Source: Singulisphaera sp. GP187 (GTDB lineage Bacteria; Planctomycetota; Phycisphaerae; Phycisphaerales; SM1A02). Taken from it: 40,955 nt of DNA. Below, in pieces: positions 21,061 to 29,524 of the stretch. Numbering within the stretch: position 1 is the stretch's first letter; each line of letters begins with the position of its first letter. The position numbers and the translations under genes were made by a program. Below the pieces are notes generated by a model. The model did not search any database. It was not told the DNA's origin and worked only from the letters and a program-made list of their open reading frames with translations. The stretch covers positions 1-40,955 of the forward strand of contig CAMDAQ010000007.1 in NCBI GenBank assembly GCA_945888705.1, in the 5' to 3' direction.

Positions 21061-22965
21061 TCAGAGATCGATCTGGATGCCGAGCTCGACCATGCGCCCC
21101 GGCGGGATCGAGAAGTGCAGCGGGTTGTTCGCGCCCGCCTGCGACATGGTGCAGAAGAGCCGCTTCTGCCAGCCGGCGAGCTCGCTGTGGCCGCGCGGCG
21201 TGAGGATCGTGCGGCCGAGGTAGTAGGTCGTGGAACCTTCGCGCGATTCGAGGCCGTACTGCGCCGCCAACTTCGTCAGCCGTGGCACGTCGACCGACTG
21301 GTTGAAGCCGTGCTGGCAACGCACGCGGAAGAAACCATCGCGCAGCTCCTCGACCTGCACCTGTTCCTCCTCGGGCACGCGAGGTACCGGTGCGGTGCGG
21401 ATGCTCATGATCGCCACGTGCTGGTGCAGGATCTTGTTGTGCTTGAGGTGATGCAGCAGGGTGGGCGGCACACCCTCGTCGCTGGGCGTGAGGAAGATCG
21501 CCGTGCCCTGCACGCGCGGCACCGGGTGGGTGTCGAGCGAGTTCAGCAGCGCTTCGAACGAGAGCACCTGCTTGTTGAACTTGGCGCTCAGCACCTGCCG
21601 CCCGCGGTGCCAGGTCCACATGAGCACGAGCAGCGTGACGGCCATGGCCAAGGTGATCCAGCCGCCGCTCGGGATCTTCAGCACGTTGGCCAGGAAGAAC
21701 GCCAAATCCACCAGCCCGATCGGGATCGCGAAGAGCAGGCAGGTTGCGACGCTCCATCCCGTGCGACGCTTGTAGGCGGTGTACAGGACGGTCGTGATGA
21801 ACATCAACGCTGCCACGCTCAGGCCGTAGGCATCGGCCAGCGCCATGCTCTTCTCGAAGATCATGACCAGCAGCACGCAGGCCAGCATCATGATCGTGTT
21901 GACCAGCGGTACGTAGATCTGGCCGCCATGGTCACTGGTGTAGATCACGCGCAGGCGCGGCAGGAGTCCGAGCTGGATTGCCTGGTGCGTCAGGCTGAAG
22001 AGGCCCGTGAGGATCGCCTGGCTCGCGATGCAGGTTGCGGCTGTTGCAAGGATCACCAACGGCAGCTGCGCCCAGCTGGGTGCCATGGTGAAGAACGGCT
22101 GCTCCACCGACATGTCCTGCAAGTACATCGCACCCTGTCCGAAGTAGTTCAGGAGCAGACCGGGCATCACGATCGAGTACCAGGCGGCACGGATCGGGAA
22201 GCGGCCGAAGTGGCCAAGGTCGGCGTAGAGCGCTTCGCCACCGGTCACGCACAAGATGACGCTGCCCAGCGCCGTGAAGCAGTTCCACGGATGGGATCGT
22301 GCCAGTTCGATCGCGTAGGTGGGGCTGCAGGCCTTCAGCACTTCCGGATGCAGCATGATGCCGCGTACACCGAGCAGTCCGATCACCGCGAACCACACCA
22401 CCATGAGTGGACCGAGCCAGGAGCCGATCGCGGCGGTGCCGAATCGCTGCACCCCAAACAGCACCACGAGGATGACGCAGGTGATCGGCACGGCAAAGCG
22501 GCTCCAGCCCGGCGAGACCACGTCCAGACCTTCGATGGCGCTCAGCACGGACAGGCTCGGCGTCAAGACACCGTCCGCGTAGAGCAGGGCAGCGCCCATC
22601 AGCCCCATCACGAAGAAGGGCAGCGACAGCGTCCGGATCGACTGTCCCGGCGCGGGGAGCAGCGACATGAGCGAAAAGATGCCGCCTTCGCCGCGGTTGT
22701 CGGCCTTGAGGATCAGCCATGCGTACTTGACGCTGATGATGATCGTGAGCGACCAGAAGAAAAGGCTCAGCACGCCAAGGACCGTGGATGGATCCCTCGG
22801 CATGCCGTGATGGGCCGAAAGTGACTCCTTGATGGCGTAGAGCGGGCTGGTGCCGATGTCGCCAAAGACCACCCCCAGCGCCACGAGGGTGATGGCCAAC
22901 TTCGCCGCGGTCCCTGAGGGACCGTGGGTGTGGTGGTCGGCTGGCGTCGAGTCGGTTCCGGCCAT
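21061..22965 (-). CDS. kup: Kup-family potassium uptake transporter
   Basis: 634 residues, the normal Kup length. The N-terminal LGVVFGDIGTSPLYAIKES is the family signature; about 12 membrane helices follow to residue 440, then a soluble cytoplasmic C-terminal domain ending in the family-typical PPGRMVELGIQIDL. It should be a K+/H+ symporter of the inner membrane. The frame stays open upstream to 24228, but that extension is antisense to the dehydrogenase gene and the signature fits ATG 22965. TACCAT 21 bases upstream (22987-22992) with TTGCCT 15 bases further is a weak promoter candidate. Divergent from the Gfo/Idh gene. Confidence 0.93.
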   Translation of the reverse strand: MAGTDSTPADHHTHGPSGTAAKLAITLVALGVVFGDIGTSPLYAIKESLSAHHGMPRDPSTVLGVLSLFFWSLTIIISVKYAWLILKADNRGEGGIFSLMSLLPAPGQSIRTLSLPFFVMGLMGAALLYADGVLTPSLSVLSAIEGLDVVSPGWSRFAVPITCVILVVLFGVQRFGTAAIGSWLGPLMVVWFAVIGLLGVRGIMLHPEVLKACSPTYAIELARSHPWNCFTALGSVILCVTGGEALYADLGHFGRFPIRAAWYSIVMPGLLLNYFGQGAMYLQDMSVEQPFFTMAPSWAQLPLVILATAATCIASQAILTGLFSLTHQAIQLGLLPRLRVIYTSDHGGQIYVPLVNTIMMLACVLLVMIFEKSMALADAYGLSVAALMFITTVLYTAYKRRTGWSVATCLLFAIPIGLVDLAFFLANVLKIPSGGWITLAMAVTLLVLMWTWHRGRQVLSAKFNKQVLSFEALLNSLDTHPVPRVQGTAIFLTPSDEGVPPTLLHHLKHNKILHQHVAIMSIRTAPVPRVPEEEQVQVEELRDGFFRVRCQHGFNQSVDVPRLTKLAAQYGLESREGSTTYYLGRTILTPRGHSELAGWQKRLFCTMSQAGANNPLHFSIPPGRMVELGIQIDL

Positions 22966-23070
22966 GGTGGGCGACGAAACTTCAGGATGGTACCGAGTTG
23001 CATCCTGAGGCAAGGGCCGCGACACTCCACCGCCCGCGCGTGCGGGTCCTCGCCCCCGAAGGAGCTTTCC

Positions 23071-24447
23071 ATGCGCATCGACCCATCGTCGTTTTCCACC
23101 GGCCGCCGTCAGTTCATCCTCACTGCTGCCGCTGCAGGGGCAGCGACGCAGTTGCCGTGGTGGGTGCGCCGTGCCGCTGCGCAGGGTGCTGCGAGCAAGC
23201 TCCGTGTGGCGTGCGTCGGCTGTGGCGGCATGGGGGCATCCGACCTCGCGCAGGTCGCGAGCCACCCCGGCGTCTCGATCGCCGCGCTCTGCGACGTGAA
23301 CCGTGACACCCTCGCCAAGCAGGGCGAGACGTACGCGGTCCCGACGGAGCGCCGCTTCACCGACTACCGCGAATTCCTCGCCAAGGCCGGCGACGCGATC
23401 GATGCCTTCATCGTGAGCACGCCTGACCATGCCCACGCGCCCGTGGCCGTGCAGGCCATGCGCATGGGCAAGCATGCGTACGTCCAGAAGCCCCTGACGC
23501 ACTCGCTGCATGAAGCGCGCGTGATCGCGCAGACGGCGACCGCGAAGAAGGTCATCACGCAGATGGGCATCCAGAACACCGCCAATCCCGGCCGTCGCAA
23601 GGCCATGGAGCTGCTCAAGGCCGGCGTGCTTGGACAGGTCAAGGCCGTGCACATCTGGACCAACCGGTCCACCGGCTGGTGGCCGCAAGGCGGTGATCGT
23701 CCGGCCGGCAGCGATCCCGTGCCGGCGAACCTCGACTGGAACTCGTGGCTCTGCGTCGCTCCTGAGCGCCCGTACAAGAACGATGCCTACGCGCCGTTCA
23801 AGTGGCGCGGGGTGCGTGACTTCGGCACCGGTGCGCTCGGCGACATGGCCTGCCACTTCTTCGACGTGCCGTACAAGGCGCTCGGACTTGGCTACCCCAC
23901 GCTGATTCGCGGCGAGAGCGAGAGCCTGACCGCCGAGCAGTATCCGTCGAGCGAAGTGGTCGAGCTCACCTTCGAGGGGGTTGCGGCTGCAGGCGGCAAG
24001 GCGCTCACGCTGACGTGGTACGACGGTGGCCGCATGCCGTCGACGTCGATCCTGCCCGGCGTGCCGGCTGACTTCAACATGGCCAAGCGTTCGCGAGATG
24101 GCGCCACGATCGTGGTGGGCGAGCGCGGCACGATGATCGTCTGCCACCCGGGCGACGTGCACCTCTTCCCGGGCACGCTCGCCGACGGCACCAAGCTGCC
24201 CGAGCTGCCCGAGTACAACCACTGGCACCAGTGGGTCGATGCCTGCATGGGCAAGGGTGCCACGAGCGCGCCGCTTGAGTTCGCGGGCCCGCTGACCGAG
24301 GGTGTGCTCTGCGGCGTGATCGGCGGCGTGGTCGCCGGCAAGACGCTGCGCTACGACTCGGCCAAGCAGACCTTTGACGATGCCGCCGCCACGGCAATGG
24401 TGCGCCGCAGCTACCGCGACGGCTGGAAGGTCGAGGGGCTTGGATGA
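23071..24447 (+). CDS. Tat-exported Gfo/Idh/MocA-family dehydrogenase
   Basis: 458 residues. A twin-Arg signal (STGRRQFILTAAAAGAA, 9-25) leads to a Rossmann domain starting LRVACVGCGGMGASDL, with DVN at the NAD ribose position and the family motif EKP present as VQKPL. The C-terminal domain carries GALGDMACHFFDVP. Tat export suggests folding with bound NAD(P) before transport; planctomycetes have many such paralogues, thought to act on sugars, cyclitols or their breakdown products. Substrate unknown. Start ATG 23071 has a strong GAAGGAG site seven bases upstream. Its stop overlaps the MFS gene start (ATGA), so the two probably serve one substrate. Confidence 0.92.
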   Translation: MRIDPSSFSTGRRQFILTAAAAGAATQLPWWVRRAAAQGAASKLRVACVGCGGMGASDLAQVASHPGVSIAALCDVNRDTLAKQGETYAVPTERRFTDYREFLAKAGDAIDAFIVSTPDHAHAPVAVQAMRMGKHAYVQKPLTHSLHEARVIAQTATAKKVITQMGIQNTANPGRRKAMELLKAGVLGQVKAVHIWTNRSTGWWPQGGDRPAGSDPVPANLDWNSWLCVAPERPYKNDAYAPFKWRGVRDFGTGALGDMACHFFDVPYKALGLGYPTLIRGESESLTAEQYPSSEVVELTFEGVAAAGGKALTLTWYDGGRMPSTSILPGVPADFNMAKRSRDGATIVVGERGTMIVCHPGDVHLFPGTLADGTKLPELPEYNHWHQWVDACMGKGATSAPLEFAGPLTEGVLCGVIGGVVAGKTLRYDSAKQTFDDAAATAMVRRSYRDGWKVEGLG

Positions 24448-25691
24448 AGCCCGCCACCAGCGCGGTCGTCGCGCTGACGGCGCTCAACCTGCTGAATTAC
24501 CTCGACCGCTTCGTGGTCGCGGGTATGGTCGAGCCGCTGAAGAAGGCCTTCGGTGCCGATGATGCCGACATCGGGCTGCTGACCAGCGTCTTCCTGGTGT
24601 CGTACATGTTCGCGAGCCCGCTCTTCGGGGCGATGGCGCGTTCACTGCGCCGCACGGCGATCCTCGGTGCAGGCGTCATCGTGTGGAGTGCGGCCACCGT
24701 GGCCGCGGGCTTCGCCGGTGGGTTCGGCGCGCTCCTCACGAGCCGCGCCATCATCGGCGTGGGCGAAGCCGCGTATGCGACGGTGGGCCCGTCGATCCTG
24801 GGTGATTGGTTCCCGGCGCAGCGGCGCAGCACGGTGCTGGCGATCTTCTACGCGGCCATTCCCGTCGGCAGCGCGCTCGGGTTCCTCGTCGGTGGCCTCG
24901 TGAGCGAATCGATCGGCTGGCGCGCCGCGTTCTGGATCGCCGGTGGCCCCGGGCTCGTGCTCGGGCTCCTGTGCTTTCGGCTGACCGAGCCCGTGCGCGG
25001 CGCGATGGATGAGCCTGCGGCGTCAAGCGGTGCAGCCATCCAGTCCGCGCCCACGATGGCGACCGCGCGCAGCGGCCGCCGCGAGGCGCTCTGGACGCTC
25101 GCCACCAACGCGCAGTGGATGTGGTCGGTTGCGGGCTACACCGCCTACACGTTTTCGCTCGGCGCACTCGCCGTCTGGATGCCGGCGTTCATGCAACGCG
25201 AGCGGGGGTGGTCACCGGAATCAGCGGCGATCACCTTCAGCGGCATTGTGGTCGTGACGGGTTTCCTCGGCACGATCGCAGGCGGAGCCATCGATGCGCG
25301 GCTCGCGCGCGGCCGCGCGGCACCGAGCCTGATGCTCTGCGCGATCACCGCACTGGTCGCGGCGCCGCTGCTCATGCTGGCCATCGCGACGCAGGATCAC
25401 ACGATCTGCATCGTGGCCACGGGAGTCGGTTGCTTCATGGCGTTCGTGTCGCAGGCCCCGATCAATGCCGCGATCCTCAACAGCGTGGGATCCGATGCGC
25501 GCGCCTTCGCCGTCGGCATGAGCACGCTCATGATCCACGTGCTGGGCGATGTGCCGAGCCCATGGCTCGTGGGCAAGGTGAGCGATGCAACCGGCTCGCT
25601 GGCCAAGGGTCTGGGGCTGGTGCCGATCGGCTTTGCGGCCGCAGCGATCATCTGGGGCGTGGGAGCGATTGCCCTGCGCCGTCGCCCGTAG
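24444..25691 (+). CDS. MFS transporter (Spinster/YnfM-like branch)
   Basis: 415 residues with about 12 hydrophobic helices. The beginning ALNLLNYLDRFVVAGM and the loop 2-3 region LFGAMARSLRRTAILG match the Spinster-like MFS branch, as do the GVGEAAYATVGPSILGDWFP segment of helices 4-5 and the RSTVLAIFYAAIPVG segment. A polar loop around residues 185-215 separates the halves. Probable importer or exporter of a small organic substrate; its ATGA coupling to the Gfo/Idh gene suggests a sugar or sugar-derived compound (inference). No own ribosome-binding site is needed. Confidence 0.88.
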   Translation: MKPATSAVVALTALNLLNYLDRFVVAGMVEPLKKAFGADDADIGLLTSVFLVSYMFASPLFGAMARSLRRTAILGAGVIVWSAATVAAGFAGGFGALLTSRAIIGVGEAAYATVGPSILGDWFPAQRRSTVLAIFYAAIPVGSALGFLVGGLVSESIGWRAAFWIAGGPGLVLGLLCFRLTEPVRGAMDEPAASSGAAIQSAPTMATARSGRREALWTLATNAQWMWSVAGYTAYTFSLGALAVWMPAFMQRERGWSPESAAITFSGIVVVTGFLGTIAGGAIDARLARGRAAPSLMLCAITALVAAPLLMLAIATQDHTICIVATGVGCFMAFVSQAPINAAILNSVGSDARAFAVGMSTLMIHVLGDVPSPWLVGKVSDATGSLAKGLGLVPIGFAAAAIIWGVGAIALRRRP

Positions 25692-25702: not shown

Positions 25703-26359
25703 GTGCTGATCCACGTGGCGAATCTCTTGCTCCTGGGGTGCTACCTCGTGCGCGACATCCTGCTGCTGCGCGTGGCGGCGGTCGTGGCGAGCGGGTGCTT
25801 CATCGCCTATTTCATGATGCTTGACGTTCCGAACTGGGAAGCCGCGGGGTGGAACGTCGTCTATGTCCTGGTCAACGCCCTGCAGATCGCGTTGCTCGTG
25901 CGCGAGCGCATGCGTGGCCAGCTCACGCCGGCAGAAGCCGCGCTGCGAGAGCGGATCTTCCCGTGGATGCCCGCGCACAAGTTCGCGACCTTGGTGCGTC
26001 TCGCGTCACCCGCGCGCGTGGGGCCCGGGGATCCTGCGCTCGTCGAGCGTGGTCATCCCGTGGCGGCGCTCTGGCTCGTCGAGGGCGGCGAACTCGAGGT
26101 CGTGGTGGATGGCCGGCGGGTGGCGACGTGCATTCCCGGCGATTTCGTGGGCGAAATGGCGTTCATCGATCGCGCCGCGGCGTCGGCCACGGTGCGCGCC
26201 TGTGCACCGAGCACGCTGCTGGTCTGGGATGCAGAGCGCCTGCACACGATGCTGGCCGACGAGCCCGAGATCCAGCGCGGCTTCCACGCGGCGCTGGGGA
26301 CCAATATGTCGCAGAAGCTCCGCCGCAAGGCAATGCAGGCGGTCAGCGGTTCGGTCTGA
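25703..26359 (+). CDS. Popeye-like three-helix membrane protein with cyclic-nucleotide-binding-type domain
   Basis: 218 residues. Three hydrophobic helices (about 3-22, 24-41, 50-66) with the pattern LVRDILLLR, a Trp-Asn before helix 3 (AGWNVVYVLVNALQIALL) and FPWMPAHKFATLV after it resemble the Popeye (POPDC) family. Residues 95-205 are a cNMP-binding-type barrel with LWLVEGGELEVVVDGRRVATCIPGD and VGEMAFIDRAAASATV. In the phosphate-binding cassette Gly-Glu is kept, but the Arg of the usual P-R-A-A-T-V is Ala (A-A-S-A-T-V), so cAMP may bind weakly or not at all. Start GTG 25703, eleven bases after the MFS stop. Role unknown; a plain Crp-like membrane protein is the alternative. Confidence 0.7.
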   Translation: MLIHVANLLLLGCYLVRDILLLRVAAVVASGCFIAYFMMLDVPNWEAAGWNVVYVLVNALQIALLVRERMRGQLTPAEAALRERIFPWMPAHKFATLVRLASPARVGPGDPALVERGHPVAALWLVEGGELEVVVDGRRVATCIPGDFVGEMAFIDRAAASATVRACAPSTLLVWDAERLHTMLADEPEIQRGFHAALGTNMSQKLRRKAMQAVSGSV

Positions 26360-26366
26360 CCGGCGC

Positions 26367-27257
26367 TCAGCGCTCGGGCATGTTCTCGTCATCGGGTTCG
26401 CGCGGCGGATCGCGGGGTTCGGGCACCGGCGCGGGTTCGCGCGCAGCGCGGCGAGCGGCTTCCGCTTCCTCCTCCTTGATCTTCAAGTCTTTCTCGCTGG
26501 TGACCATCAGTACGAAGCCGCGTTCGACGACGAGGTAGTCGTTCTTGCCCACGGTCGCGTGGCCACGCACGATGCCAGCACCCAGTGCGCGGTCGCCCGA
26601 CTTGGCGCTGTGGAATTGTGCTTCGTCGATCGCGATCAAGGCACCGCTGGGCAGCTCCATGACCATACTCACGGCACCGAGTCCCAGGTCAACGGACGGC
26701 TTCAGCACGCCGATGGCCACCAGCGGCGTGCCGGGTTCGTCACCGAAGCCGCCTGCAAGCCGTTGCGCTGCCTTGTCGATCGCTTCGGCGTTGCGTGTGC
26801 GCGCGAACTCCGTGATCGAATCGAACACCTCGGTCAGGATCTTGGTCGCTGGGGCGTTCTTTGCGAGTTCATCGGGGCAGCCAGCCATGGCAAGTACGAG
26901 CGCATCGAAGCGCTGCATGATGAGCTCAGGCTTCGCCGAGCCCGTGCCCTTGCAGGTCGAGCAGGCATCCTGCTCGTGATAGATCTGCCCCTTGGTGAAC
27001 AGCTTCTCGGCCTTGCGCGTGCGTTGGCGCACGACCGCGCCGTCGCCGCCGCAGGCTTCGCACGCCATGCTGCGACGCAGCGATCGCGCAGCCTGCGCGA
27101 CTTGGCTTGGGGTGGTCTTCTTGACCGCAGACGGTGCGGGAAGCGCCGGCGAGGCGGCACTGCTCTCGGCAGCCACAGGCGCAGCATCCTGCGCCGCCGC
27201 CGGCACGGCCAGCGCGCAGCACGCCACAGCAAGCATCGTTCTCAGGATCGTGTTCAT
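26367..27257 (-). CDS. Exported protein with two DnaJ-type CxxCxGxG zinc motifs
   Basis: 296 residues. Signal peptide 1-22 (MNTILRTMLAVACCALAVPAAAQ), Ala/Pro-rich stretch, then CEACGGDG (about 66-73) and CSTCKGTG (about 99-106), the two half-motifs of a DnaJ-like zinc centre, 33 residues apart. The remainder has a small barrel-like region (PSGALIAIDEAQFHSAKSGD, VVERGFVLMVTSEKDLKI) and a charged Glu/Arg/Pro tail. A zinc-ribbon chaperone motif outside the cytoplasm is unusual; the protein is not otherwise recognised. ATG overlaps the stop of the binding-protein gene (ATGA), so they are coupled. It converges on the Popeye-like gene with a gap of seven bases. Confidence 0.7.
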   Translation of the reverse strand: MNTILRTMLAVACCALAVPAAAQDAAPVAAESSAASPALPAPSAVKKTTPSQVAQAARSLRRSMACEACGGDGAVVRQRTRKAEKLFTKGQIYHEQDACSTCKGTGSAKPELIMQRFDALVLAMAGCPDELAKNAPATKILTEVFDSITEFARTRNAEAIDKAAQRLAGGFGDEPGTPLVAIGVLKPSVDLGLGAVSMVMELPSGALIAIDEAQFHSAKSGDRALGAGIVRGHATVGKNDYLVVERGFVLMVTSEKDLKIKEEEAEAARRAAREPAPVPEPRDPPREPDDENMPER

Positions 27258-28333
27258 GGAGCCACCTCCTCGTTCGGCTGCGCAGCGGGGGCTTCTTCAG
27301 CTGGAACCATGATTTCCTCGGTGATCTCCTCGATGACCACCGCGCCATCGGGAGCGGGCTCAGGGGTCCACTCAACCCATGAACCGCTGGCATCGAAGTC
27401 GGGCCGCAGGATGCCCGACTCGACCATCTGGTCGGTGAGCGATTGCCATCGGCGCGCCTCCATGCGACCGAGCTGCGCCGGGGTCATGCCCTCGGGCATA
27501 ATCAGCGGTCGCTGCGCCTTGGAGCAGAGCTCCATCGCCTGCTCGTCCATGGCGCGGTTGAGCTTCATCATGCGTGCGTGGTAGGGGGTCGGATTCGCCA
27601 GGTACGCGGCCCACCCTTCCCGCACGCAGTCGACAAACGCTTTTACGCCGTCCGGGTCGGCGTCGACGCGCTTGGACGTGGTGATCAGCACCGTGGAATA
27701 GGGATCGAAGCCGCAATCGCTGACCATCAGGCACTTGGTCTGGATGCCGTTGCGCAGGAGCGTGATCGGTTCGCTGCTGCACCAGCAGACCACGCCGAGC
27801 TTCAGGTCGCGCTCGAACGTGGCCACGCCGGGCGAGCGGCTGACGAGCGTCACGCCTTGGTCGCCGAGCATGTCGTTCATGTGGCGCACGAACGGCAGCC
27901 CCGGCTCGATCTCGATCGTCAGCCCCGTGGTCCATGCCTGCGCCAGCGTCTGCGCAGGGTTGGAGTCATGCAGCATGATGGCGGTCGGCGCGTGCTGGAA
28001 CGTGGCGAACAGCCCGACCACGTCTTGGCCGCTCGCGCGCGCGAGCAGGATCTGGTCCGCCTGCGCGACGGCATAGTCGCAGGTGCCCGCGGCGACGAGC
28101 GTGCAGGTCGGCGTGCCACCAGTGCCTTGCAGCAGGATGACCTTGTAGCCCGCGCGATCGAAGATGCCGTCCTCGACCGCAGCGAAGAGGCCGCCGAACT
28201 CAGGCTCGGCGACCCAGTTGAGCTGGAGCGTGATGGGAGTGAGCGAGGGCGGCTCGACCGGTGCCTGAGCGGCAGGCTGGTCGGCGGCCTGGGCGAAGAG
28301 CGAACATGCCAGCAGGATCGTCGTGATGGCCAT
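27254..28333 (-). CDS. NMT1/ThiY-like ABC-type substrate-binding protein
   Basis: 359 residues. Signal peptide 1-16, then a periplasmic binding fold of the NMT1/THI5/SsuA group: ITLQLNWVAEPEFGGLFAAVEDGIFDRAG near 34-62, TCDYAVAQADQILLAR, and a late GVKAFVDCVREGWAAY. Relatives bind pyrimidine precursors of thiamine, taurine or nitrate. No permease or ATPase gene is adjacent, so it is an orphan or pairs with a transporter elsewhere. The acidic, Pro/Glu-rich C-terminal 50 residues are not part of the fold. Seven Cys are unusually many for this family. Preceded by TAGGCT six bases before ATG 28333; coupled to the zinc-motif gene downstream. Confidence 0.85.
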   Translation of the reverse strand: MAITTILLACSLFAQAADQPAAQAPVEPPSLTPITLQLNWVAEPEFGGLFAAVEDGIFDRAGYKVILLQGTGGTPTCTLVAAGTCDYAVAQADQILLARASGQDVVGLFATFQHAPTAIMLHDSNPAQTLAQAWTTGLTIEIEPGLPFVRHMNDMLGDQGVTLVSRSPGVATFERDLKLGVVCWCSSEPITLLRNGIQTKCLMVSDCGFDPYSTVLITTSKRVDADPDGVKAFVDCVREGWAAYLANPTPYHARMMKLNRAMDEQAMELCSKAQRPLIMPEGMTPAQLGRMEARRWQSLTDQMVESGILRPDFDASGSWVEWTPEPAPDGAVVIEEITEEIMVPAEEAPAAQPNEEVAP

Positions 28334-28362: not shown

Positions 28363-29406
28363 TCACTGCGGGCACTGACCCCACGAGACGAGCATGATGC
28401 CTAGGTCGGCGCCGCCGACGAAGCCATCGTCATCCAAGTCCGATGCCGCGTCTGCGGTACCCCATGCGGTCAGCAGGATGCCGAGATCGGCGCCGCCGAC
28501 GAAGCCATCACCGTCCAGATCCGGCGCACACGCCGGAACCGACTCGCCCAATTCCGCGACACCGATCTGCTGCCCGTTGCCATCGGCGTCCTGATCGTTC
28601 CAACGGCCATTCGACCCAAGAAGTTCCGTGAAGTCCTCGATGCCACCGCTGTTGTTCGGTTCGCCCGGGTTCCAGTTCGTGTAGGTGGCCGGCGTGCCAT
28701 CGGTCCAGGCGAACTGTCCTTCGACTTGGACATCGTTGAAGCCGATCCAGAGTCGACGGTCCACACCACCGTAGTTCGCCACGTTCGCACGCACCCACTC
28801 GTTCTCCTCGGCATCCTCGATCGAGACGAGGTGGCCGCCGAGCTGCACGGCCGTGGCTTCGGCCGCTGCCCACGTGGCTGCTGCGTACGCCACGTACCGC
28901 GTGCCGGTCTCGGGGCGCGTGACCTCGAAGAGTGCACCATCGGCGATCGTCAGCGTGCCGGCACCGCTGGCAGCGCCGGTCTCGCTCGAGCCATAGCCGC
29001 CGATGCGCACCAAGTACTGCTGGCCGGCGGTCACCGCGATGGTCACGCGCGACTGCGCACCGCACGTGTCGTCGCTGCAGCCGAGGATCGACGTGGCGGT
29101 CGCGCCGCAGTCGCAGCCGGCGTAGACGGCGAGCTTGGTGTCCCACGTTGCGCCGCCACAGGTCGCGATGGTGACCAGGCCGGATGCCGACGGCGTCCAG
29201 CAGAACCAGATGTCCTTCCACACCTGGGACTGGCTGAAGAAGTTGCACTCGGGATTGATCGGTCCGTCGGTCGTGGCCTCCACGCTCGTGAAGGCGAACG
29301 AGCCCAGGCCGGCGATCGCCTCGGCGCTCACGCACGCATCGTTGACGGGGGGAGCAGCCATGGTCGAGGCTGCGAGTGCGTGGACGATGAGGGCGGCGGT
29401 GGTCAT
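28363..29406 (-). CDS. Secreted C-type-lectin-domain protein with dockerin-like C-terminus
   Basis: 347 residues. Short signal peptide (about 1-18), then a jelly-roll-like domain beginning PPVNDACVSAEAI, of the kind often placed before sorting domains. A C-type lectin domain (about 160-285) follows with WAAAEATAVQLGGHLVSI, LWIGFNDVQVEGQFAW, the carbohydrate-type EPN triplet in NPGEPNNSGG, and GRWNDQDA. The end has two calcium loops, DLDGDGFVGGADLGILLTAWG and DLDDDGFVGGADLGIMLVSWG, then QCPQ, with a Cys (PACAPD) before the first. Probably binds glycans outside the cell. ATG 29406 has the ribosome-binding site CAGGAG six bases upstream. Confidence 0.85.
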   Translation of the reverse strand: MTTAALIVHALAASTMAAPPVNDACVSAEAIAGLGSFAFTSVEATTDGPINPECNFFSQSQVWKDIWFCWTPSASGLVTIATCGGATWDTKLAVYAGCDCGATATSILGCSDDTCGAQSRVTIAVTAGQQYLVRIGGYGSSETGAASGAGTLTIADGALFEVTRPETGTRYVAYAAATWAAAEATAVQLGGHLVSIEDAEENEWVRANVANYGGVDRRLWIGFNDVQVEGQFAWTDGTPATYTNWNPGEPNNSGGIEDFTELLGSNGRWNDQDADGNGQQIGVAELGESVPACAPDLDGDGFVGGADLGILLTAWGTADAASDLDDDGFVGGADLGIMLVSWGQCPQ

Positions 29407-29524
29407 GGTGGCTCCTGGATCGTCGGATTGTGCCGCCAAGGTGGCGCGGGTCCAAGGGCGAAGGGCTCGAATCCTGGCGCACCCGGCCAACGGATCGTGC
29501 GTAGCGCGATCGCCCGTCGTTGGT

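Follow-up and report, generated by a model that had tools for sequence, protein, structure and literature searches.

A bacterial Popeye-type protein with a cyclic-nucleotide cassette that lacks the classical arginine

The POPDC genes are human heart and muscle disease genes, and a 2021 review describes the exact biochemical activity of their products as poorly understood (PMC8706714). A 2019 review gives an IC50 near 118 nM for the reported binding of cAMP by animal POPDC proteins and states that no experimental structure of the Popeye domain had been reported (PMC6952887); cAMP binding is reported elsewhere as well (PMC4080823). Two conserved motifs of the animal proteins, FL/IDSPEW/F and FQVT/SL/I, hold no Arg (PMC6562197). 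Animal POPDC1 forms complexes with adenylyl cyclase 9 and TREK-1, and beta-adrenergic stimulation reduces the association with TREK-1 (PMC9724675). In the trypanosomatid PKA regulatory subunit (PKAR), the cassette has lost its Arg, and a nucleoside is held through its ribose by a Glu at cassette position 4 (PMC10959531). Apyc1-like enzymes of hosts cleave cyclic mononucleotides broadly, and a role in host signalling has been suggested (PMC9117128). No description of bacterial Popeye proteins was found among the matches listed from open-licence PMC literature, as judged by titles and the starts of abstracts.

The window, the whole stretch of 40,955 nucleotides of planctomycete DNA analysed here, contains an ORF with exact limits, a GTG at 25703 and a stop codon ending at 26359, that encodes 218 residues (Table 1). 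Comparison with seven orthologues of the genus gave 48–83 changes at third codon positions versus 2–14 at second ones, and each pair shows more synonymous than non-synonymous codon changes. This third-position-biased divergence indicates that the ORF is translated in the plus frame; it is a real, conserved gene. An antisense gene in the same interval was rejected because divergence tracks the codons of the plus frame. Contamination or a stray contig was likewise rejected, as the gene is present in eight of nine genus genomes and stands in the same gene order in the six others fetched (G001 and G004 were left out of that comparison).

Table 1. Features of the Popeye locus in the window (residue numbers are those of the Popeye-type protein)
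Feature	Coordinates	Strand	Basis
Gfo/Idh/MocA-type oxidoreductase, 4-base overlap with MFS start	22924..24447	+	PF01408 62.3 bits
MFS transporter, partner gene, 11 bases upstream of Popeye	24444..25691	+	PF07690 160.5 bits
Popeye-type protein, 218 aa, GTG start	25703..26359	+	PF04831 and PF00027 above cut-offs; AlphaFold mean pLDDT 92.3
Predicted membrane part, helices at residues 2-13, 19-39, 45-71	25703..25915	+	AlphaFold, hydropathy, POPDC1-3 33.5 bits (1-95)
Two linker helices, residues 76-85 and 91-100	25928..26002	+	AlphaFold
cNMP-type beta barrel, residues 102-176	26006..26230	+	PF00027; VIA Z 15-17 to CRP-, HCN- and PycTIR-type domains
Phosphate-binding-cassette equivalent GEMAFIDRAAASATV, residues 150-164	26150..26194	+	alignment; site roles from PMC10959531
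C-helix, residues 188-216, conserved Lys205 (63/69)	26264..26350	+	AlphaFold, alignment

An earlier note, made from the sequence of this stretch, had proposed a Popeye-like protein and suggested profile searches against the Popeye and cNMP_binding families. Both searches are positive. The full-length protein scores 42.3 bits with PF04831 (POPDC1-3; cut-off 28.1) and 47.9 bits with PF00027 (cNMP_binding, residues 113–185; cut-off 27.5). Residues 1–95 alone reach 33.5 bits with POPDC1-3, again above the cut-off. As counterevidence the note had named a Crp- or kinase-type domain joined to an unrelated membrane part, and this is not what is found. Residues 90–218 alone score 49.4 bits with cNMP_binding and give no POPDC match in Pfam. 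What marks the protein as a Popeye is therefore its membrane half together with the linker. The isolated barrel is an ordinary cNMP_binding domain, with PKG, PKA and SthK domains as its closest PDB sequences.

The PF04831 match is, as judged by the profile, better than chance: none of 14 control genomes matches this model, and PF00027 is matched in 10 of the 14. In the alignment of relatives, 67 of 69 rows match PF04831 at E ≤ 0.001, some of them below the cut-off (for example L059, 26.2 bits). In NCBIfam, all matches of the Popeye protein stayed below threshold. Pfam gave no match to a C-terminal helix-turn-helix of Crp/Fnr type, and the protein ends with the C-helix at residue 216. Both animal motifs, DSPE and FQVT, are missing from the window protein, where the cassette reads FVGEMAFIDRAAASATV. 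Because it fails these signature motifs, the protein is not an animal-type POPDC, in a comparison made with the Pfam model and the motifs printed in papers rather than with animal sequences directly. The profile evidence identifies it as a genuine bacterial Popeye-type protein of a wide PF04831 family, and the existing Pfam model already reaches bacterial Popeyes.

The predicted structure and Pfam agree on three helices followed by a cNMP barrel, as the earlier note had it. The AlphaFold model, built from 69 sequences (mean pLDDT 92.3, pTM 0.71), replaced an earlier one built from seven, which had a pLDDT of 77 and a poor cassette. Hydropathy and the POPDC match suggest that the three N-terminal helices, the first of them short, sit in the membrane. 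The cassette carries a short helix at residues 151–156. Alignment of residues 73–218 with VIA gave Z 17.2 for both 3gyd and 3mdp, 16.4 for MtbCRP and 15.7 for cUMP-bound PycTIR; the top VIA hits are single cNMP domains and CRP types, and HCN, CRP and SthK chains are among the top ranks in Foldseek. The best PDB sequence matches are PKG, PKA and SthK domains, and structures of trypanosomatid PKAR are among the better ones (6flo, 1e-05; 6ftf, 7e-05). No POPDC chain appears in the best 60 PDB sequence rows or the 50 fold-search rows; this excludes nothing, and the membrane part is barely covered there.

Within the barrel, Gly129, Gly146, Gly150 and Glu151 are invariant in the 69-row alignment and Ala162 is kept in 67 rows. 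Within the membrane part, Arg23 is invariant, Asn58 is kept in 68 rows and Trp50 in 67. The conservation of these three residues suggests a role of the membrane part beyond anchoring. In one relative, L018 (G680:C1:3159794-3160063), no cNMP cassette is evident by eye in the C-terminal stretch after the Popeye-type membrane part; the Popeye membrane module may exist without a barrel.

We numbered the cassette from the Gly of Gly-Glu as position 1, which places the Arg of PKA-type cassettes at position 11 and, in the window protein, Ala160. From Gly150 the cassette runs Glu, Met, Ala, Phe, Ile, Asp, Arg, Ala and Ala to Ala160, then Ser, Ala, Thr and Val. The earlier observation that Gly-Glu is kept and that the Arg is Ala is borne out by G150-E151 and A160-S161-A162, and all nine aligned genus sequences (from eight genomes, the window's included) have the same Gly-Glu and Ala. 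Ala160 as local decay of one gene was rejected, as Ala is found in 9/9 genus sequences and Arg in no relative read. Among 77 readable relatives, position 11 is Ala in 62, Thr in 10, Pro in 3, Asn in 1, Gly in 1 and Arg in none; the 69-row alignment gives 56 Ala, 8 Thr, 3 Pro, 1 Asn and 1 Gly. In other genera of the window's taxonomic family, ordinary cNMP domains have Arg in 14 and His in 2 of 16 readable cassettes. These 16 come from a control set of 20 PF00027 stretches, the best of those found, of which four were unreadable; the 16 derive from fewer genera and are not independent. The Arg-less pocket is a family trait, normal for the bacterial relatives read.

The relatives were collected by a barrel-pattern scan of genome contigs, and 80 of 109 confirmed relatives were used. 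The scan pattern, from Gly146 to Phe154, demanded Gly-Glu, so the conservation of these two residues is partly built in; it did not demand the Arg site at position 11. Three of the 80 (L069, L073 and L086) lack the seed pattern and were dropped from the count of 77; the 69-row alignment shows Ala for L073 and L086, and L069 was unread. The 77 include four relatives of the window's genus (L078, L092, L094 and L095), all with Ala. Twelve of the 80 loci, truncated or with a doubtful start, were left out of the 69-row alignment. At least eight loci represent the same contigs reached through two collections (L011=L023, L013=L024, L015=L047, L017=L055, L002=L094, L003=L095, L005=L078 and L006=L092). 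Two relatives stand out by their cassettes. L024:5983-6669, on the same contig as L013, combines Glu at position 4 with Asn at position 11 (GEIEYTLDRPNCATV), a combination that matches one site of the trypanosomatid nucleoside-binding PKA subunit, and L014:1489-2148 has Glu at position 4.

The earlier note had gone on to suggest that the altered pocket might have a different ligand. The Arg is indeed absent, but the absence is family-wide and makes no case for another ligand by itself, because the relatives and the printed animal motifs are also Arg-free and animal POPDC proteins are reported to bind cAMP. The nucleoside model of trypanosomatid PKAR is not directly transferable either, since the window protein has Ala153 at position 4, where PKAR carries Glu, and the residue there is Ser or Ala in 76 of the 77 relatives (Glu in one).

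The Popeye gene is thinly spread. PF04831 is matched above the cut-off in eight of the nine genus genomes. The family sample gives 8 of 151 genomes and 1 of 45 genera, the window's genus only; the order sample gives 7 of 301 genomes in 2 of 147 genera, and the phylum sample 9 of 392 at E ≤ 0.001, eight of them above the cut-off. By their record titles, the relatives span Pseudomonadota, Planctomycetota, Bdellovibrionota, Ignavibacteriota, Bacteroidota, Myxococcota and others, and in a quick tree the window's genus forms a long, well supported separate branch, remote from all other rows. This sparse spread is consistent with gain by transfer or with repeated loss. The window protein matched no phage record at E ≤ 0.01, and a plasmid search with the relative L058 gave three partial matches, each confined to the barrel and a portion of the linker. 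At 11 planctomycete loci (L033, L034, L038, L041, L042, L044, L047, L053, L055, L061 and L062), the gene before Popeye comes from one cluster, co-directional in 9 of 11; its representative at L044 resembles a multihaem cytochrome by weak Pfam matches.

Among the same 80 relatives, part of the bacterial Popeye family is tied to genes for cyclic-nucleotide enzymes, a finding that is new. An Apyc1-type phosphodiesterase of the MBL fold (PF23023; cut-off 50 bits; for example L082, 106.2 bits, and L090, 99 bits) adjoins Popeye at 13 of the 80 loci. It lies co-directionally 27–49 bases downstream in seven and convergently in five, and is split over two frames at L069. In all 13 genomes this neighbour is the sole PF23023 match at E ≤ 0.001, at L069 in two pieces that score below the cut-off. 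Ten of the Apyc1-linked genomes were counted for cyclases and hold 4–32 matches, none among the ORFs neighbouring Popeye.

A class III cyclase gene lies within 5 kb of Popeye at 6 of the 80 loci (two in Billgrantia, three alphaproteobacterial, of which two in Hyphomicrobiales, and one in Bacteriovoracaceae). The chance that a cyclase falls within 5 kb of a random point is 0.2–0.6% per genome, and the linked cyclase is the sole PF00211 match in four of the six genomes and one of two in the others. Five of the six are CHASE2 sensor cyclases with FecR nearby, although FecR at L049 scores 23.4 bits, below the cut-off of 24. The fullest arrangement is in Billgrantia endophytica (L073:5989-12610), where about 7 kb hold tandem Popeyes, a PDEase_II-like gene, FecR and the genome's sole class III cyclase match. 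Its class II cAMP phosphodiesterase-like gene scores 43.7 bits with PF02112 over 69 of 340 profile positions, and 70.7 with the general MBL model. An MBL-fold gene after Popeye at L064 reaches 22.5 with PDEase_II (cut-off 23.7) and was not counted. At 61 of the 80 loci both kinds of gene, class III cyclase and Apyc1-type, are missing from the stretch covered, some stretches being short. Because the linked loci come from few lineages and were noticed after looking, no overall p-value is given. These three arrangements, in unrelated groups, point to a link with cyclic nucleotides.

At the window's own locus, no cyclase or phosphodiesterase gene was found beside Popeye. The gene does lie directly after a transporter gene, as had been noted, with the MFS gene at 24444–25691 ending 11 bases upstream. 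The order oxidoreductase–MFS–Popeye is common to the window and all six other genus genomes fetched; the gap between MFS and Popeye is 11 bases in six of these seven and 52 in one. The oxidoreductase has a Tat-like signal of 16.2 bits, below the cut-off of 22.7, and the listed start is probably too early. Three further features of the region are on the minus strand. An apparent KUP-type potassium transporter is seen by eye at 21061–23000, inside a long ORF (21061–24228). A secreted-looking protein at 26367–27257 has a DnaJ zinc-finger-like CxxC cluster (19.9 bits, below the cut-off) and is overlapped over four bases by an NMT1/THI5-like gene at 27254–28333, and a protein at 28363–29490 has, by eye, a lectin-like part and a C-terminal repeat like a dockerin-type calcium motif (GADLGILLTAWG).

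The window genome has two class III cyclase matches (PF00211), one with HAMP and one with CHASE2, on two contigs other than that of Popeye, C13 and C20. Reading by eye, D, K, D, T, N and R are present in both, which we take to be the catalytic residues. The CHASE2 cyclase is preceded by a FecR gene, and about 5 kb away lies an Apyc1-like gene, which scores 48.3 bits, below the cut-off of 50 that is exceeded in six of nine genus genomes. All nine genus genomes have PF00211 matches versus 67 of 142 in the family (Fisher p 0.003, a value that ignores relatedness). Popeye is the sole cNMP_binding match of this draft genome at E ≤ 0.001, and all PF00027 matches of the genus at this level are Popeyes (eight of nine draft genomes; G004, 81% complete, has none). 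Popeye is the candidate receptor if the genome's own cyclases signal through any classical cNMP domain.

We put at roughly 0.6 the probability that the bacterial Popeye is a membrane-tethered receptor with an Arg-less cassette and a likely cAMP-type ligand, with the MFS transporter as its likely partner in this genus. As some relatives adjoin genes for cyclic-nucleotide enzymes, the window protein is probably a second-messenger receptor, a little-studied one of bacteria, and probably works like animal POPDC. The three-helix membrane anchor would carry a cytoplasmic receptor domain of cyclic-nucleotide type, and the ligand would most likely be a 3',5'-cyclic mononucleotide, with cAMP as the first candidate, that the class III cyclases of the same cell produce. 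The ribose would be held by Gly-Glu, and contact with the phosphate might come from the main chain, from Ser/Thr at 161–163 or from a C-helix residue such as Lys205. Entry of the ligand into the barrel would move the C-helix, and this movement would lead the membrane part, probably a dimer, to alter its hold on a partner protein. The likeliest partner in the window's genus is the MFS transporter encoded directly upstream, given that oxidoreductase–MFS–Popeye is kept in the window and six other genomes; the genes may be co-transcribed and Popeye may regulate the transporter. Shared gene order is, however, no proof that the transporter is the target.

What speaks against a receptor is that the residue gripping the cyclic phosphate in classical domains is present in none of the 77 relatives. 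The window's own locus, with no cyclase or phosphodiesterase gene adjoining Popeye, and the 61 loci without such genes in the stretch covered also count against it. One way to read the absence of the Arg is that the pocket has switched to an uncharged nucleoside or another metabolite and signals purine or carbon status to the transporter. Loss of the Arg accompanies nucleoside binding in trypanosomatid PKAR (PMC10959531), the PKAR structures 6flo and 6ftf are among the better PDB sequence matches, and L024 has the Glu and Asn of the trypanosomatid type and L014 the Glu. We regard a ligand switch as unlikely nonetheless, because nucleoside binding by PKAR needs the position-4 Glu, which is Ala in the window protein and Ser or Ala in nearly all relatives, and the recurrent neighbours readable as partners are cyclic-nucleotide enzymes. 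The empty phosphate site would also suit a domain that binds no ligand and serves as a structural module scaffolding a membrane partner, with the conserved Arg23, Trp50 and Asn58 suggesting that the membrane part is the working end. Some channels have ligand-free cNMP-type domains. Such a module is quite improbable here: the barrel residues Gly129, Gly146, Gly150, Glu151 and Ala162 are (almost) invariant, evidence that is partly non-independent as the scan pattern spanned Gly146–Phe154, and an adjoining phosphodiesterase or cyclase gene would be hard to explain.

The combination of membrane helices and a cNMP domain, together with class III cyclases and with Apyc1-type enzymes near relatives, also recalls Pycsar defence, in which the protein would be a membrane effector fired by cCMP or cUMP. 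Its barrel matches the PycTIR and Pycsar effector models of PADLOC and aligns with the cUMP-bound PycTIR structure. These PADLOC matches are confined to the cNMP domain, and no membrane-effector model is matched in a library that may lack PycTM models. Popeye is a stable gene of the genus in a metabolic neighbourhood, the window protein has no phage-record match at the threshold given above, and most of the neighbouring cyclases in relatives are CHASE2 sensor cyclases. We consider a defence role of this kind very unlikely.

Taken as Arg-less, membrane-tethered receptors, bacterial Popeyes would offer a simple system for studying cyclic-nucleotide binding without the Arg and the role of the Popeye membrane part. 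The named Billgrantia strain brings two Popeyes, a sole cyclase and a phosphodiesterase-like gene together in one stretch. The animal family, treated as metazoan in the literature passages drawn on here, is suggested to have bacterial kin with a similar job. A bolder and rather doubtful proposal is that Popeye is an old bacterial receptor that bound its ligand without Arg in gene modules that also held a cyclase and a class II phosphodiesterase, and that animals inherited both the pocket and the assembly with a cyclase and a transport protein.

The known systems each share part of this design. Like the classical cNMP domains of CRP, PKA/PKG, SthK and HCN, the window protein has the barrel, the Gly-Glu and the C-helix; unlike them, it lacks the phosphate Arg and has a Popeye-type membrane part, and no DNA-binding, kinase or channel part was seen in it. 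With the trypanosomatid PKA regulatory subunit it shares a replaced cassette Arg, whereas the ribose-holding Glu at position 4 is Ala. The Pycsar effectors PycTIR and PycTM also join a cNMP domain to another part, that of PycTIR aligning at Z 15.7, and work with class III cyclases, which the window genome also has; the window protein differs in having no TIR match and no adjoining cyclase, its neighbours being metabolic genes. Compared with animal POPDC1-3, it lacks DSPE and FQVT, keeps Gly-Glu, has a barrel that is an ordinary cNMP domain in isolation, and is smaller (218 residues versus 290–360; PMC4973886). It shares with them three N-terminal membrane helices, a cytoplasmic cNMP-type barrel and cassette motifs without the classical Arg. 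The Popeyes of Billgrantia L073 stand in tandem, as do animal POPDC1 and POPDC3 (PMC4080823). The partners of animal POPDC1 include a cyclase and a membrane transport protein (PMC9724675), and some of the bacterial genes adjoin cyclase, phosphodiesterase or transporter genes.
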